Assembly: GCA_019096195.1 (NCBI GenBank)
Contig: JAGTXK010000076.1
Location: 124,001-188,000 of the forward strand
Source of the DNA: Boletus sp. NGJ
Taxonomy: Eukaryota; Basidiomycota; Agaricomycetes; Boletales; Boletaceae
Reading direction: 5' to 3'
Length of the DNA stretch: 64,000 nt
Shown: positions 1,945 through 44,786 of the stretch, piece after piece
How the letters are laid out: each line of letters starts with the position of its first letter
Numbering within the stretch: the first letter of the stretch is position 1
Made by a program: the position numbers and the translations under genes
Notes under the pieces: generated by a model
Told to the model about the DNA's origin: nothing
The model's database searches: none
Seen by the model: the letters and a program-made list of their open reading frames with translations, nothing else

Positions 1945-2600
1945 CAGGGAACTTTGACACTGTCATTGGTATATACCTTCACCGGGCCTTCGGGCAGCAG
2001 TAACAGTGGTTTCACTATTCCGCTTGGTATCGACGGCTTCACCTGCCCGAACGACTTCCAGGCTGGTATCGACTCTATTGGGGGCAACTTCTTTGATGGA
2101 GTGCCCTCGCGATGGTACAGTGGTGAGACATGCTGGATTTTTTAGTCCGAATTGGTTTTCATCATTCGTGCATCAAACAACTTGGCGCTGGCGTCACCAT
2201 CAAATTTCAATGGTGGTGACGTTATCATTGTAGTTGCTCCCTTTACGAATTTTGGCATAGTGGTCATTGACAATCGGACCACTGGCCATTTTCAATGTCA
2301 GGAAGTACTGCATGGACCTTTTCAGAATCCTCTTTGCAGAACGATACCGAGTGATTCGTCACAGTAGTCTTCGAGGGGAAGGATAGCGTTGAAACCCTTC
2401 CCCTCACGAATTTGAACAGCGTGACCTTCACTGACCCCAGTATCACTGGTGATAGCGACTTGCAACAACCCGCTTAGTGCCACTCTGCCATCTTTGACAT
2501 TTATTGTGTGGCAGGACAAGACAACTCTCAGTGCTCACGTCCGTCAACCACAGCGTAGATGGCCTCCTCGTCCAGTACCTCTCAGGCTAACCAAGTGATG
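1945..2600 (+). pseudogene. Decayed second eqolisin-like gene
   Basis: Downstream of the first eqolisin-like gene are pieces of a relative on the same strand. At 2005-2120 there is a GIDGFTCPNDFQAGIDS stretch, matching the WVGIDG...LQTGVDF region and keeping the Gln. At 2200-2345 there is a GGDVIIVV...VVIDNRTTGHF stretch, and at about 2364-2440 a VVFEGKDSVETLPLTNLNSVTF stretch. The last two lie in different frames with a stop between them, and no plausible intron of normal size joins them. I see no signal peptide of its own. It may be a broken tandem duplicate or the badly spliced 3' part of one longer locus. Confidence 0.5.
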
Positions 2601-2822
2601 GCGGGCGGTCATCTTTTAATTTGTGGGGAAAACCAGCAAGTTGTGATCATTTATACCAATAACCTGAGTGCTAGACAGAATACATATTTCGAAAGTAAGG
2701 ACCCCGATTACCATCTGCCTCAACTAAACCGAGGACCCCGGGACATTACACGTTAACATCCATCCCGTGTTTCGCCATCCCACAGGTTGACGTTTAACTC
2801 GCACTCGAACGCCCGACTCACG

Positions 2823-26207: not shown

Positions 26208-26437
26208 CATCAGTAAAATTACATGCATCTTAATCTGTCTTATTCAGCTTATTGACTTGCACAACATTTCCAAATCTGACACAGAAGCAAATTCTAAGCT
26301 TCATTTTGTTGATATAGCCCTAGTTGATGTTTCTGATGTTCTGGAACACATGATCATGGTATTGAATATATTTTGCAATTTGACAAGCAGAATTAGCTAA
26401 AATAAGCCAGATTAAGACATGTGTAATTTTACTGATG
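26208..26437. mobile_element. MITE copy 1, 230 bp with terminal inverted repeats
   Basis: The ends are inverted repeats: the left begins CATCAGTAAAATTACATG and the right ends CATGTGTAATTTTACTGATG. Imperfect pairing continues inward (CTTAATCTGTCTTATT against AATAAGCCAGATTAAG). A second, similar copy lies at 39938-40181. The body contains no CpG dinucleotide and no coding frame. It is a non-autonomous DNA transposon of unknown superfamily; the flanks show at most a 2-bp repeat (TG/TG), which could be chance. Confidence 0.8.
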
Positions 26438-26785
26438 TGCAAAACGTCTACATGTACAAATAGAAAATTGATTAATTAATTGTTAGTTTGGTGTGTAAAC
26501 TGTGCGTTTTCCGATAGAAATTCTTGCTCAAGCGATGTAAATTCATATCCCGTTAAGTCTGAGTCGCGTACTATTTAGAATGGGTCCGTTGTTTTGTACG
26601 TGTATGCTTACATTCGATGGTTGCTAACAGTCCGAATGAATGAATATTTTGAGTCCCTCTAAACGGTAACTTTACTAAACGTATTGTGGAACAGAGACAA
26701 GCACGTGTCTCGAGCAAGTTCTTCGCCGGCCGCTTGTGTCCATTCGAGCATGGAATTGCCGGTGACTTGCACAGCAAGACGCGCA
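26438..26785. other. Intergenic, AT-rich
   Basis: This is AT-rich sequence between the MITE and the partial HET copy. The stretch 26686-26780 is open in the frame that enters the HET copy and contains KFFAGRL, faintly like NTFSGRL of the full gene. Confidence 0.4.
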
Positions 26786-37641: not shown

Positions 37642-39214
37642 ATGATTCTCCGCGTTCAGGTTTCGATGTTTTCACTAAGCGCCCCGCCCGAAAATCTATC
37701 TGTGCAACATCACCAGACGGCACGCGACAAGGCTGTATCGACATGTTGGCTTCGTGCGGGCACGGTCATCCTCTCGGTTCGATCGCTCACAGGCATGCTC
37801 CTCCCAAGAGAAAAGGGCCATAGATGTGACTTCTGTTATTCTCTTCCTCCTCAAGACCGAGGTCGCCTCCAAAGGTGCGCGGGATGCGCCTCGTACTGGT
37901 ATTGCGATTCCAAATGTACGCACGATCCGAACGTGACGTTGAGTACTACCCGACGACCGATCCATCTCATCCTCAAGGTCAAACATTGCATTGGCGTACC
38001 CACAAGAAGTACTGCAAGAATATCAATACGTTCTGCGCGTCGCACCAATTCAACCAACTTGAATCTCACGAAAGGGAAGATGCCCTTCTCCTCACTCACT
38101 TGCTCGCCGAGTGCTCGACCAAAGGCACAGAGATACAGGAAGGAGGCGACCCGGGTTTGTCGATATTCATGACCTTGCTGCCAGGTCCGGTCGAAGGGAA
38201 GGATGCGCCGCCTACGTGTCCATTACTGACCCGTCAGCGCCCTATGCAAACGGCCAGTGAGCTGTTTTCGCGTTGCGGGAACAACAACTTTTCGATCCAC
38301 AGTCACCTGACTACCATTGCCCATGGCGTCTTTCCTTTGGCAAGCCGGTTGTTCAATCATTCCTGTGTTCCGAACGCTGTTGCAAAGTATAGGATTGCCC
38401 CAGCAAAGGAGGTAGTGATGGACATTGTCGCCATTCAAGACGTTGCCCCAGGCGAAGAGGTGCGTATTATTTATGAAAAGCCATGTATACTCAAACAGGT
38501 CTACTAGATATGCATCCCTTATGTTGACCCCGCCCTTGTCGAGACACGTCAGCAGATGTTCCGGTTCACATACGGTTTCACGTGCACGTGTCCATCTTGT
38601 ACAGCTTTCAAGCTATTGGATTCGTCTTGGCCTGTGCCGGATGAGGAAGAGCTTGGATCTCTCGGAACTTCCCTTCGCAAATTCGTGTTTCCAGATCAAT
38701 GCCCTGACGCGATCAAACTCCCAAGTTCGCCTGTGAACCTCGAGACGATGCCTCTTGAGATCTTCCGCATCTTCCGCGAATCTTGCCTCGCAAGCTTATG
38801 CGAATCGTTCAGCACCTTTTCGCACGATGGACCATTTGAATCTGCCCTTGAAGCTGGTCTGATCATCCTCGCTTTCTACGTCGTCATCTACCCACCTAAT
38901 TACCCTCAAATTGGTATGTGTCCTGATTTTCTCCCTCGAGTCCAGATCACTTCAAGATGAATTAATTCCTTTATTAATCAGGGACACACTTGCTGGAAAT
39001 GGCAAAGACAGCATGGAATGCCTTCATTACCATGGATGGTACAGATCCCTCGACACAGCCTGTGGGATTAAAATTGTTGGCACAAGTTCGAGTGTATCTT
39101 CGACTGAGCAACCAAGTCTGGACGGTGATTGGGCCGGAGGGAGATTCTGATGGAGGTCCTTTGGCGGAGATTCAGGTCTTGGGATGTCTATTGAGTGAAC
39201 AAGGGTTGTTGTGA
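37642..39214 (+). CDS. SET and MYND domain protein (SMYD-like)
   Basis: SMYD-class proteins are candidate lysine methyltransferases with a SET domain split by a MYND zinc finger. The ATG at 37642 is the first in frame. The N-terminal SET half is followed by the MYND finger: CDFC ... CAGCASYWYCDSKC, then across an intron QTLHWRTHKKYC. The SET core is LASRLFNHSCVPNAVAKY, containing the NHSCxPN substrate/cofactor motif. After an intron (donor near 38459) comes IPYVDP, then the post-SET cysteines CTCPSC. The C-terminal half is helical and TPR-like (AKTAWNAFITMDGTD ...). The spacing agrees with fungal SET-MYND proteins. The substrate is unknown. Its 3' end borders the CpG-free block. Confidence 0.83.
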
Positions 39215-40515
39215 TTGATCTGCATTGCACTTGTACAATATTCTAGCCATTGGTAGGATAGGGGCTTTCCACTAAAAATGGTGATGTAACTGACTCAACA
39301 GCACTGCATGGTAGCTCAAAAACCTTGGGATAGGGGATTTCTGGCACAGTCTTTGAAACCACCTGCAATATATTCCAGTCCAACACAATATGATGAACAT
39401 GGACTCCTTTGCTACTTTACATCCTTACCTGCTTTCCTCTGTCTCTGAGTCTGAAAAGCCCACAAAACCACCCAAGTCCCACATGCAGATACTACTCAGC
39501 AATCATACACCCCTGATATCTTTTGCCTGATTTTGCATCCTGCAACAACAGGACCCTGAAGAACAATATATTGTCACAGAAATCTCCCTTTACAAGGAGC
39601 AGTCTGTGTTCCCAGGACTGCACCATGAATTTGTCCTGCTTGTACAGTAACTCAACCCCACCCAAGCCAGACCACAGGTGAAGCCCCTGTTGTGATCAGG
39701 GTTTCCTGGACCAACACACTCCTTGCAAGACTTGGCCTGTGGGGTATACTGTAGCTAATGGCATGATCACTGTCCTTGGTGATCTTGGCACCACTCAAAT
39801 CAAGCACAACTGCCTCTATCACTTTATGTGGGAGCCTCAAACAGGCACCCACATTGCTACAAATGTCCCATCTAATTGCAACAATCTCCAACTACATCCA
39901 GTATCACCACAAAATGCATCATGCCACAAGTCAGCTTCATCAGTAAATTTACATGCATCTTATTCAGTCTTATTCAGCTTATTGACTTGCACAACATTTC
40001 CAAATCTGACATAGAGATAAATTCTAACCCTCATTTTGTTGAAAAATAGATCAGCTTGGTTGTTGTTGATGTTTCTATAATGTTCTGAAATGCATTATCA
40101 TGGTAACGAATATATTTTGTAATTTGACAAGCAGAATTAGCTAGAATAAGCCAGATTAAGATGCATGTAAATTTACTGATGTTAAGAGTGGATATTAGAT
40201 ACTCCCTACTAAGCCTGAATTTTTCTTCCATCAATTAACTCTCATGGACACTCCAGACAACCACAAAATGTTGGTTTGAATCAGGGGCCACATCAGTAAA
40301 TCTTCACTTTACTTAGTCAGTCACATCAGGCAGCCAAACATTCTCATAAGCAATTTAGTGTATAAGTAATAAATCTTCAATGGCCCCCATTCCAATGAGT
40401 CCATCCTTAGTCTGCCCTGCTGAGAACACAACACTAGATGACAAGCTTCTCCAAGTTGTCTTTGCTCCAGATGACAAACAGGTCTGACAGTCTTGAAACT
40501 CCCCACAATCCGACC
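39215..40515. other. CpG-free block, probable methylated transposon remnant
   Basis: By eye this 1.3 kb holds only one CG dinucleotide (in GTAACGAATA near 40105), whereas the neighbouring sequence has CG every 10-20 bases. TG and CA are correspondingly frequent. This is the footprint of long-term cytosine methylation and deamination, as seen at silenced repeats of basidiomycetes. No coding frame survives. A 244-bp MITE is nested inside. The boundaries are sharp: the block begins right after the SET-MYND stop and ends where CCGACCAGCG appears at 40517. Confidence 0.7.
39938..40181. mobile_element. MITE copy 2, 244 bp with terminal inverted repeats
   Basis: Second copy of the family at 26208-26437. 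Its outer 25 bp are a perfect inverted repeat, starting CATCAGTAAATTTACATG and ending CATGTAAATTTACTGATG. Inner sequence is shared with copy 1, including CTTATTGACTTGCACAACAT and TTTGACAAGCAGAATTAGCT. It contains no transposase. The better-preserved ends suggest that it is younger than copy 1 or has changed less. Confidence 0.85.
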
Positions 40516-41453
40516 AGCGATGTACCCCATCATTAACTTTCTGTCTATCATCTGTGCATGGTCGAGCACCAGCTAAAGAAGCCATGGGGACCAGAGCGAC
40601 TGATTTCTTCATCCAGAATGACTCCACGAATAACGAATCCTCCTTAGTGATGGTTGACGTAGGGTCAGCATCATACCAGAGTTCCACCGCAGCGGTGATG
40701 ATTCGGAGCAAAGTAAATGCTCCATATTCTTCGCCAGCGTACTGCTCTCCGCAAGCTCCGGTGCCCAAGGTTTGTGCTCACGGTGAGTCCACAAGTACCT
40801 GGTCAAACGGATGCTCTCGCAGTGAGATTCAAGGTGCCACACTCCAGTGCGGCGACCAAGGATGGAGGACTCTCTGAGTATGCTTTCCAGAGCCTGGGTA
40901 AAGTCAAACCCAAAGATGACAAACGACATTCACATCAACAGGTCGGCAATGTTGACAGTTTGGAGGCGTGGCGCATCGAAAGCAATTGCATTCAATACCT
41001 TGAATTCGGTAATACTAAATTTTGAGGGACTTACTGTCGATAGCTGTTGCGCAGCAGGTCGCAACTCATTTCATTTCAGACCAGAGCACTGGATGTCGCA
41101 ATATACATATCTCCCCTTCAAGAGCTCCGTCAACGGCTCAAACAGCATATTAAAAACCTACGGAACCAAAACATATGACGTTCCAAAGCAGGGGCAAAGA
41201 AAGGTTTACCTGGTGGACGGTGCGGTAATCGTTTTCCCAGATTCATCAGGGCCGAGGAAGAGATCCCCGGAATCTTTATCTACGTGGTCAGTACAATTAA
41301 GACGTGATCATAATTGGACGAGATGGCGGCCAATTCGTGAGCACGTTGGGTGTAGCTCTGGGTGGCCCGGTCGGTGCCGAGGTCAAACGGAACATGGTGG
41401 ACATCCGCCGTGGGGATAGTAATCACGGATGCCGCTATGGATAATATCGGCAT
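40360..41453 (-). CDS. Uncharacterised gene, 3' part possibly disrupted
   Basis: A chain of exon-like pieces runs on the minus strand from ATG 41453: MPILSIAASV...DVHHVPFDLGTDRATQSYTQ, then GDLFLGPDESGKTITAPST, NMLFEPLTELLKGRYVYCDI, VLNAIAFDAPRLQTVNIADL, ALESILRESSILGRRTGVWH and EEYGAFTLLRIITAAVELWY. The pieces are separated by spans with GT/AG ends. I do not recognise the family. One junction (around 41300) has a stop without a good intron. The last recognisable coding part, near 40520-40560, runs into the CpG-free block, so the natural 3' end may have been replaced by the repeat. It could be a live gene with a novel tail or a decaying one. Confidence 0.4.
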
Positions 41454-41533
41454 GGAAGTGGGATGAGATGGAGTAGAGGTTCAGATGAAGGAATAGGAGT
41501 CTAGGAGACAGGATAATGCCGCGCGTTAAATTT

Positions 41534-42036
41534 TCAAAACCACGAGGACTTGCAAAATGGTTTGGAGGACCGGCATTCTTCCCCTTGTACAGCCCTGCAT
41601 TTGATTCTTAATACAAGGGCAGGAAAAGAAGATAGGAGATAGGAAACACCCAGGTAAGGTGCGCAGCTTCCGTTGCGCTGATGGAGGAGCCAGTGACAGG
41701 CGACACATTGGAAGGCCACTGCCTCGTCGCTGATGGCATTCCTGTGGTCTTCGTGTACGTGTAGACATTCGGCACACATCGAACGCGGGCAGTCGCTACA
41801 TTCATACAGCACCCCACCGTCCTAGCACAAAAAGCGAAACTAAGCCTAGTCAGAAAGTAACTGTTTGGATGTTGGGTAGTGCTCACCGACAAAATTGTCG
41901 TCTGCTCCTCAGATGTAGATCCAGTTGTTCGTTTGACCAAACGTTGAGCGCGCCGTCCAGAGGGTTTCAGCGAGCCTAGGCGAACTCGAATTGCTCCACC
42001 AGTTGACAAGCCTGTGGTTTGTTTGATACGGGCCAT
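41534..42036 (-). CDS. Small protein with histone H3-like N-terminus and Cys-rich finger
   Basis: Exon 1 starts at ATG 42036 and reads MARIKQTTGLSTGGAIRVRL. Histone H3 begins MARTKQTARKSTGGKAPR, so R2, K4, Q5, T6, S10, T11, G12 and G13 are kept, while K9 is Leu and K14 is Ala. A basic stretch (GRRAQRLVKR) follows, then a GTGAGC...TAG intron. Exon 2 encodes a PHD/ZZ-like half-finger: DGGVLYECSDCPRSMCAECL ... FQCVACHWLLH. The first cysteine pair of a normal PHD finger is not visible. The frame stops at 41534, about 130 aa in all. An extra intron from the GTGTTT near 41656 is possible, which would change the tail. I infer a chromatin-related protein or H3-tail mimic; nothing proves function. Confidence 0.6.
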
Positions 42037-42301
42037 GGTGTAGGGATTCAATTAGGGCAGAGGACGGTTTGAGCGATAGAACCTGCCAGTGGTCGTCGCG
42101 GAAAACGGTCCGGGTGTGCTGAGCCGAATGCGCTGCTCTGCCGGAAAGCGCCGGAATTCCCATGTCACTAACATCCTCCAATATCTCAGCCCGACGTGGC
42201 CATTTACTCTTCAGAGCATCGCACCAAGCCAGCTGCTTGATTCATTTCACCTCTTCATTTCTAATCCGACATACAGGAGGCTTGGGCTCGTCGGGCAAAA
42301 C

Positions 42302-43232
42302 ATGGAGGCATGGGTAATGCAGGTTCCACCCATCACACGTGCGTGGTTAGCGCTCTCGGTAGCAACTAGCCTGGCGGTCGTACGTCCAGCGGTACTCCAC
42401 AACCGTGCATAAAGAACTGATCACGTATTTGATGTCATACAGCAATGTCAGGTCGTCACTCCACTGCAGCTGTACTTTTCTTTCAAGTCTGCGTTCACAA
42501 ACGCACAGGTCAGCCTTTTATGTCTTGTTCGTGCTGGTAACAAGCTCATGTAGATGGGTTGGGAAGCCGTGGCGGATGCTTACCACCTTCTTTTATTTTG
42601 GCCCACTCTCGCTAGACTTTATATTCCATCTTTTCTTCTTGTGAGTGTGTTCTGTATACTTTAGATTGGGTTGGTCAACTAACGTGTTCACCTTCGACTA
42701 CCCAGTATGCGATACAGTCGTATGTTGGAGGAATCATCGTTTGCGAATAGAAGGGCAGATTACCTCTGGTTGCTTTTGCTTTCATCGCTGATGCTTCTCG
42801 TACGTCCGGACCTATGAAGTCCTAGCATCATCAGCTGACCTAGTTCTTCAGGCACTGTCGCCATTAGTTAACCTTCCGTTTCTTTCGTCTTCCCTGGCCT
42901 TTGTTCCGATCTATATATGGTCCAGACGACACCCATCCACGCCTATAGCACTCTTTGGCATCTTCACGATATCCGCACCCTATCTGCCATTGGCACTCGT
43001 TGGGCTTTCATGGATCATTAGTGGTACATGGAAGGCTGCCGCAGGTGACTTGATCGGATGTGCTGTGGGCCATATCGGCTGGTTCTTGAGGGATGTGTGG
43101 GCTAGGGAGATGATCGGGGGGTATACTCCCCTCAGCGAAGCTCCAGAAATTCTGTGAGTCGTGTTTCTGATTGCCTTGTCACGCTGGCGTGCTGACTGCA
43201 CATGTAGCAAGCGTCTGTTCGGAGATGTTTGA
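42302..43232 (+). CDS. Derlin family protein (DER1-like)
   Basis: Derlins are rhomboid-like pseudoproteases of the ER membrane that help move misfolded proteins to the cytosol in ERAD. From ATG 42302: MEAWVMQVPPITRAWLALSV, then QCQVVTPLQLYFSFKSAF and, across an intron, PWRMLTTFFYFGPLSLDFIFHLFF, MRYSRMLEESSF, LSPLVNLPFL, APYLPLALVGLSW, and GDLIGCAVGHIGWFLRDVW with the GxxxG element. Exons 42302-42379, 42443-42508 and 42567-42640 keep phase, using the AAG acceptor at 42564-42566. The last exon is KRLFGDV and the stop is 43230-43232. It has four to six hydrophobic segments. It is divergent from the H3-like gene with 265 bp between starts. Confidence 0.9.
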
Positions 43233-44786
43233 CAACTGGCATCCGTAGCATTGTATAACAGTACCGCAACATGTCGATTCCCTTACCAAAACGAGAGTTG
43301 TCATCGATTAAAATATTGGGAGCTACCTTCTTGGTTGTCATCCTGCGTTATTAATTTACAATTTGGCCTGCTTGAACTACGCGCCAGCTAGCAGTGGGGA
43401 CCACGTTACGTTGACATTAATGTGGACATCAAGAACATGGTATTTCTGCAAGTGGCCATGATAGCGGTTTGAATGGCGCGTTTTATGAAGTCACGTCTCT
43501 TTGAGCTCGCCTTGTAGCTCAACTGTCTCCGCGAGGTTGGTTTAAACATTCAAGTTTCCACATGACAGAGCGCTACTACTGTTGTTCAATGTTCAATGTG
43601 AGGGGCACGTAAAGTCTATTGGACGATGGGACTGTGACTCCGCAAAGATGTATATCACCTTGCTTGCAAAGCAAGGTCCATGCATGGTCACCTATTCTGC
43701 AGATTTGCTACAAGAACAAACATTGATATATTTGAAAAAGGATTTGTGAATCTTGTGCCAGGTCACGAATCTTTCGCTGTATTTAGCATCTTGGATTTCT
43801 AAGATTCGCTACATGAACAAATAATGATATATTTGGAAACAGATTCGTAAATCTTTTGATGGGTCGTGAGCCCTTCGCTGTATTTGGCATCTCGGATTCC
43901 CAGTAGCACATGTCGGCATTGCAACTTGCAAGCAAGGTCCTAATCGTCAACGACGACGCCTAGTATCCAAGAGCAGGAGCTGGACTGCCAAAAAGTGGTA
44001 ATGGCGCAAACAAATTACAACTGCTGTATGGGACTCTAAGACCGTCGCCGTAATGAAGTTGAGGTGATTTTAGCGAAGAGGAATGAACGGATGGATCAGA
44101 GATCGTGTCAAGAAAGGTGCAGACATGCATGTCGATAGTATGCCCAATGACATGTCGATGGCTCGCCAACGATGCTCAGGCGGAAGTAACACAGCGTAGA
44201 ACTCGGGAGTGGGTCTTGGAAGGTTTGTGTAACTTCAGGCTCCAGAAGGAGGTGAAATCACACGAGACCAATGACCGCTCAGCGAGTCTGTCCGAGTCGG
44301 AATCAGTGCGTGAACGTCCTGCGTTCCCATACTTTTCATTCACCGGCTGACTTTGAGCGAACTACAATTAATAAGTCTAGACCGAGAGTGCGGTACCGCA
44401 TTCATGACCGTTCGACCGTGCGTAATGGCGGGACCGAACGCAGTCTTCCAAGGCTATAAGCCTCAGCTTGACATTCCAACACTTGCAAGAGAGGTCCAGC
44501 AAGTGCTTATCATGAGCTTTCGCTGACACTGGGTGTCCGAGGTCTGTTATCAACGGATGCAATTGCCATGTTGTCTCAGGGCAGATTCAGAGTCAAACCA
44601 CACAAACTCTGTTGATTTAACTGACTCGCGCCAGTGTCCTCGAGGCCTATCGCTACTTTTCTTTCTTTTTGGTTTCTTTTTTCTTCTATCCAGTAGCTAT
44701 CCTTTGCTGTGTATATTTCACCAATCTGCTTTACTTTCCCTCTTGGTGAATAAGCCCCCATTTGGCGCCAGGCCGGTTATACCCAT
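43233..44786. other. Intergenic, 1.5 kb, no gene supported
   Basis: No domain-bearing frame was found. It contains the tandem repeat at 43701-43901. Two similar words (CTTGCTTGCAAAGCAAGGTCC near 43660 and CTTGCAAGCAAGGTCC near 43925) flank that repeat. Confidence 0.45.
43701..43901. repeat. Two-unit tandem repeat of about 101 bp
   Basis: Unit 1 (43701-43801) and unit 2 (43802-43901) share AGATT(T/C)GCTACA(A/T)GAACAAA, TGATATATTTG, ATTCGTAAATCTT-like and TTCGCTGTATTT(A/G)GCATCT blocks, with perhaps 80% identity by eye. No coding sense was found. Confidence 0.75.

Follow-up and report, generated by a model that had tools for sequence, protein, structure and literature searches.

A family of non-histone genes in the genome of Boletus sp. 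NGJ encodes proteins that begin with a copy of the histone H3 tail and continue into a Cys-rich finger of the PHD/ADD type, placing a ligand and its probable reader on one predicted protein at six loci. The member from which the analysis started lies in the window, the whole 64,000-nucleotide stretch of DNA analysed here. Its H3-tail look-alike is genuine and confirmed, and the copy itself is a decaying member of the family, with a zinc ligand lost, a stop after the orthologous splice acceptor and two frameshifts.

The window copy and its H3-like tail

Translation, family alignment and comparison with the intact sister gene on contig C9 gave the following parts of the window locus (C35), with the evidence for each in brackets:

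41887–42036, minus strand: exon 1, H3-like tail MARIKQTTGLSTGG and basic, Ser/Thr linker, 50 codons (translation, chance control)
41822–41886, minus strand: intron 1, usable by the window copy, GTGAGC...TGCTAG, 65 nt (splice ends, C9 comparison)
41650–41821, minus strand: exon 2, Cys-rich PHD/ADD-like finger, DGGVLYECSDCPRSMCAECL...FQCVACHW (family alignment and profile)
41595–41649, minus strand: probable intron 2, GTGTTT...ATGCAG, 55 nt (alignment to C9)
41218–41594, minus strand: exon 3 remains, C9 residues ~138–260, two frameshifts (alignment to C9)
40750–41004, minus strand: exon 4 remains, C9 residues ~316–402, internal stop, zinc-ribbon end lost (C35:106697–106951, E 1.3e-7)

Exon 1 is open throughout, begins MARIKQTTGLSTGGAIRVRLG and translates from 42036 to 41887 as MARIKQTTGLSTGGAIRVRLGSLKPSGRRAQRLVKRTTGSTSEEQTTILS. 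Its ATG stands in the context ACCATGG; an in-frame stop lies 18 nt before it, and no further in-frame ATG intervenes. The tail is identical to H3 residues 1–13 (ARTKQTARKSTGG) at 9 of 13 positions, namely A1, R2, K4, Q5, T6, S10, T11, G12 and G13; T3, A7, R8 and K9 are changed, with Ile in place of Thr3, and K14 is Ala. An earlier, sequence-only reading had described an H3-tail copy with K9 and K14 replaced on a protein that is otherwise not histone, and both statements hold. As an empirical control, all 2,366 ATGs of the window were scored: the tail start scored 9 and the other 2,365 scored 5 or less. A composition model gave P = 6.8e-9 per start. One result counts against the likeness: a 24-residue H3-tail query against the whole genome listed C9 and another contig, C134, and the window copy was absent from the best five candidates scored.

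A GT..AG intron (41886–41822) joins exon 1 to the Cys-rich exon (41821–41650). The acceptor orthologous to that of C9 lies at 41840, and its use yields FRFLC followed by the stop TAG at 41824–41822. Arg replaces the family's first zinc-ligand Cys in this copy, and decay of the first ligand pair at the splice site accounts for the "half" look of the finger. Downstream, the exon 3 remains retain VPFDLGTDRA..., VLIVLTT and HVDKDSGDLFLG, and homology to the sister gene extends to ~40750. The gene does not stop at 41534, as the sequence-only reading had it, one frame merely continuing there beyond the second intron, and the treatment of this decayed locus as a working gene is not supported. Despite the decay elsewhere, tail and linker are retained. 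Just downstream of the gene remains, the stretch ~39938–40182 recurs as an 84% repeat at 26208–26438 of the window.

A family with tail and finger at six loci

The contigs of the same genome were searched with the joined window exons; the best candidates were scored, so family counts are lower bounds. The finger was found at six further places: C50, C9, C10, C11, C40 and C6. C50 is 100% identical to the window region 38500–44500 (6,001 of 6,001 bases compared), and a 701-base probe ~36 kb away in the window (2000–2700) is also identical in C50, collinear at both stretches. C50 is either a recent duplication, a second haplotype or an assembly duplicate, and it was counted with C35 as one locus, giving at least six distinct loci (C35=C50, C9, C6, C10, C11 and C40).

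All six start with an H3-like tail, behind which lie the Cys-rich finger and a longer stretch of conserved sequence. The tail of C9, MVRTKQTAKKSTGG (peptide VRTKQTAKKSTGG), matches H3 at 11 of 13 positions; those of C6, C40 and C11 read MVHTKQTAKKTIGG, MTHTKQIAKKTTGG and MTCTKQMAKKTTGG, respectively, and that of C10 reads MTCTKQMA. The tail runs through GG at five of the six loci. The sequence-only reading had made its case depend on orthologues sharing the motif, and all five other distinct loci of this genome have it, C10 being cut short after KQM. Lys4 is kept in every copy and the residue after Met is always small (A, V or T), while four copies have His or Cys in place of the H3 Arg at position 2. 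The starts of C40 and C10 are less certain, since further in-frame ATGs lie upstream. We call the tail an H3 N-terminus mimic on three grounds: the likeness goes beyond chance, a small residue follows Met, and the tail is kept across copies.

C9 is the only intact copy. It encodes 477 aa beginning MVRTKQTAKKSTGGEAPR, in four exons predicted by eye from the genomic sequence and separated by introns of ~50–56 nt with GT and AG ends:

C9, 3123–2902, 2850–2662, 2606–2076 and 2019–1531 (plus split-codon bases), minus strand: exons 1 to 4, by-eye gene model

A stop interrupts the finger of C6. C10, C11 and C40 each contain several stops and belong to a dispersed repeat that is ~90% identical and 3.3 kb or more in length; three decayed copies within such a repeat indicate that the family gene is carried by a repeat.

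An H3 query retrieved C9 unprompted, with E 0.0059 for whole H3 and 0.0018 for the tail. It aligned to C9 residues 1–50 only, no histone fold followed the tail and no histone model was listed; a histone variant was rejected on account of this limited alignment. We also dropped C102:807084 (E 0.031, 35% identity), seemingly another Cys-rich chromatin gene with no such tail in the part seen, and set aside look-alikes beginning MARIKQREDG... at C1, C71 and C10:235610, which belong to a different repeat and lose their resemblance to H3 after KQ. No family relative was confirmed among two candidate stretches in viral contigs or eight in prokaryote genome contigs.

Constraint on the tail was assessed over codons 2–14 by comparing C9 with C6, C40, C11 and C35, as 13-codon counts rather than a formal test. 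Synonymous differences (pS) were 0.98, 0.55, 0.52 and 0.73, respectively, against nonsynonymous differences (pN) of 0.15, 0.19, 0.21 and 0.36, and in the linker (residues 19–42) only 1, 2, 2 and 2 of 24 residues were common to C9 and each copy. A low pN beside widely different synonymous sites and an unrecognisable linker argues, within the limits of 13-codon counts, that the tail is old and that selection on the protein preserved it as the linker drifted. C40 and C11, a recent pair, differ in the tail by three nonsynonymous and no synonymous changes, which shows no constraint and is the pattern expected of dead copies.

Two further non-histone genes start with H3-like tails. On the plus strand at C134:10193, a frame starts MARTKTTVRRSLGGTAPRVSL... 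and meets stops further along; its tail resembles that of C6 (44% over 1–43, E 0.031), and its body matches DUF6532 at E 1.4e-4 and 22.3 bits, just below the 24-bit cut-off. At other DUF6532-like places, read over the matched stretch alone, the match fell in the body. At C81:254369, also on the plus strand, a frame starts MPRTKQTARKTTGK and then departs from H3; its sequence MPRTKQTARKTTGKHLEF equals this genome's H3 at 11 of 13 tail positions, non-histone sequence follows a likely GTGAGT donor, and the gene has no Pfam match. These two tails are either parallel inventions or the product of a shuffled tail exon. Separately, C124:465541 holds a divergent H3 (53% identity), possibly the centromeric one, in which the tail is shortened to TARKSTGGGPP and RYRPGTLALREIRKYQ is present.

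The finger and the regions behind it

The zinc ligands of C9 are Cys 76, 79, 88, 91, 96, 99, 119 and 122. The eight-ligand spacing C-x2-C ... C-x2-C-x4-C/H-x2-C ... C-x2-C is present in C9, C6 and C10; in a five-row alignment that left out C40, the first ligand is absent from the window copy and C11. A finger profile built from five family members matched CHD4 (4.1e-7) and, over the whole finger, the ATRX ADD (1.4e-6) among PDB sequences, as well as CHD5, AIRE, SP140, PHF21A and NSD3; for CHD4 and AIRE, most of the aligned part lies in the finger's first half. Within E 0.01 the search listed 13 distinct PDB sequences, every one a PHD or ADD-type finger from a chromatin protein. With the whole C9 protein as query, AIRE (2.6e-4), CHD4, ATRX and the histone H3 tail (0.0023) were matched, and the DNMT3A-ADD/H3.1 fusion chain 3a1b aligned at E 0.0055 in a single stretch that covers both tail and finger (query 3–103).

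Pfam models were less decisive. PHD scored far under its cut-off on the C9 finger (E 0.31, 11.5 bits vs 24), the DNMT3 ADD model reached E 0.0042 in one of five finger members, and casein kinase II beta scored equal to or better than PHD in three of five (best 0.016, C9). Of the PHD/ZZ-like finger that the sequence-only reading proposed, the PHD kind stands on the profile matches and the ZZ type was rejected, no ZZ model being listed in the profile searches. A first guess, a KDZ/CxC2 transposon protein, found no Pfam support and was dropped. Structure prediction for the window finger by itself was uninformative (mean pLDDT 53.6).

The ATRX ADD and the CHD4 and AIRE PHD fingers share with the family finger the Cys spacing and a DGG/EGG-x-L strand, and have no known protein context in common with it. 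The fifth ligand of the family finger is Cys instead of the usual His, as in ADD; an ADD carries a further GATA-like zinc finger, which was not seen in the family protein. Most of the matched PHD and ADD fingers read the H3 N-terminus with unmodified K4. The family finger thus appears to be of a PHD/ADD type resembling H3 N-terminus readers, and a reader role is probable.

Behind the finger lies a middle region of ~180 residues, with strands that end ...LITLTSH-S and ...LFVMFAC-G. All four aligned rows share the His, and all three that reach the Cys share it; the two are 49 residues apart in C9. We take these contexts, by eye, to resemble the caspase (clan CD) motif, and the domain is perhaps caspase-like. 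Searches of Pfam, NCBIfam, PADLOC and PDB sequences gave no match of note for the middle region; Peptidase_C14 and CHAT family models gave no match there, nor were there any among PDB sequences. The C-terminal region contains a WAHRDFRPWG motif and CxxC pairs.

A proposed gated reader and its alternatives

The predicted protein plan consists of a free N-terminus with an H3(1–14)-like tail, a flexible linker of ~35–60 residues, a Cys8 PHD/ADD-type finger, the ~180-residue domain with its conserved His and Cys, and the WAHRDFRPWG/CxxC region. The initiator Met is removed when a small residue follows, and its removal here would expose A, V or T at residue 2. From the observed tail, the observed finger and their joint conservation, we infer that the tail may dock in the finger of the same or a partner molecule, standing in for unmodified H3. 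Modification of the mimic, or real H3 with unmethylated K4, would then shift the balance between tail and finger, and the shift would switch the downstream, perhaps caspase-like, domain, much as H3K4me0 releases ADD-locked DNMT3A. The reading we favour, tentatively, is that the tail sits in its own finger or in that of a partner and thereby gates the downstream domain; its likelihood falls a little short of even. The second idea of the sequence-only reading, binding of the tail by the protein's own finger, is strengthened by the finger's best matches being known H3 N-terminus readers. Weighing against the favoured reading are the Pfam scores of the finger, the changes at tail positions 2 and 3, the C40/C11 comparison, the survival of a single intact copy and the lack of a match for the middle region.

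Two published systems bear on this plan. Autoinhibition by the DNMT3A ADD is relieved by H3K4me0 (PMC13031684). In CHARM, an H3 tail fused to another protein binds the DNMT3A ADD; a tail of 12 residues is enough, K4 and a long linker (first-round length 40 aa) are required, and so, apparently, is a free N-terminus (PMC11875203). On paper the family suits such an arrangement, with Lys4 in 6/6 copies, a small residue after Met in 6/6 and a C9 linker of ~60 residues. Both CHARM and the family have H3(1–12 or longer) at a free N-terminus, K4, a long linker and an ADD-type target, putative in the family (PMC11875203), whereas CHARM is man-made and targets the ADD of another molecule, and the family is natural with the ADD-type finger in the same protein. 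The 3a1b crystal construct (DNMT3A ADD and histone H3.1) likewise joins an ADD finger to an H3 tail in a single chain, and is artificial, unlike the natural family protein.

The main rival is the lead of the sequence-only reading, namely display in trans: the tail would bait other H3 readers or modifiers (PHD, WD40, LSD1-type, BIR, Set1), bringing the protein to them or competing with H3, while the protein's own finger would read real nucleosomes. We regard this as rather unlikely. PAF15, which is not known to carry a reader finger, and C9 are both non-histone proteins that start V-R-T-K; the H3 similarity of PAF15 ends after K4, whereas C9 continues KQTAKKSTGG. The PAF15 VRTK N-terminus is read by the UHRF1 PHD (PMC12704277) and the H3-like AKER tail of Shugoshin 1 (Sgo1) is bound by the Survivin BIR domain (PMC9253516), natural precedents that act in trans. 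Sgo1 resembles the family in bearing an H3-like N-terminus on a non-histone protein and differs in that its mimicry spans four residues and works in trans. The unrelated C134 and C81 proteins also bear such tails, with no finger seen beside them. Against display in trans, it leaves the pairing of the tail with an H3-tail-reading type of finger at 6/6 loci unexplained.

Head-to-tail assembly, in which each molecule's tail binds its neighbour's finger and crowding activates the middle domain, would draw on the same ligand and probable reader on one chain and on the long linker (60 residues in C9); we consider it improbable. Still less probable is that the window copy is functional, making a short protein of tail and half finger that serves as a dominant decoy: its start context is good, exon 1 is open and the alternative acceptor keeps frame through exon 2, but the first zinc ligand and the zinc-ribbon end are lost, a stop stands behind the orthologous acceptor and two frameshifts follow. 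Chance likeness of a short basic N-terminus to H3 is disfavoured to the point of near dismissal: only 13 positions are compared, with 0.007 such starts expected over the ~1.02 million ATGs of the 32.8 Mb genome for the window copy alone and a composition figure of 0.2 for C6, C40 and C11 each taken singly, but the tail recurs at 6/6 distinct loci, reaches 11/13 in C9 and led an H3 query to C9 unprompted.

A bolder version of the gating by tail and finger, which we hold to be doubtful, would make the protein a self-gated chromatin sensor. Here the H3 pseudo-tail would lock or tether the ADD-like reader, K4-unmethylated nucleosomes would free a caspase-like protease, and the pseudo-tail exon would be portable, already shuffled onto a DUF6532 protein.

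In the open PMC literature (titles and abstract starts), none of the matches listed described a fungal H3-tail/PHD fusion. Two published natural mimics, PAF15 and Sgo1, are short motifs shown to readers on other proteins. An H3 mimic of 14–18 residues together with a matching reader-type finger in one protein would be a natural form of the engineered design of CHARM and 3a1b and would point to a route for fungi to couple H3K4 methylation state to another activity.
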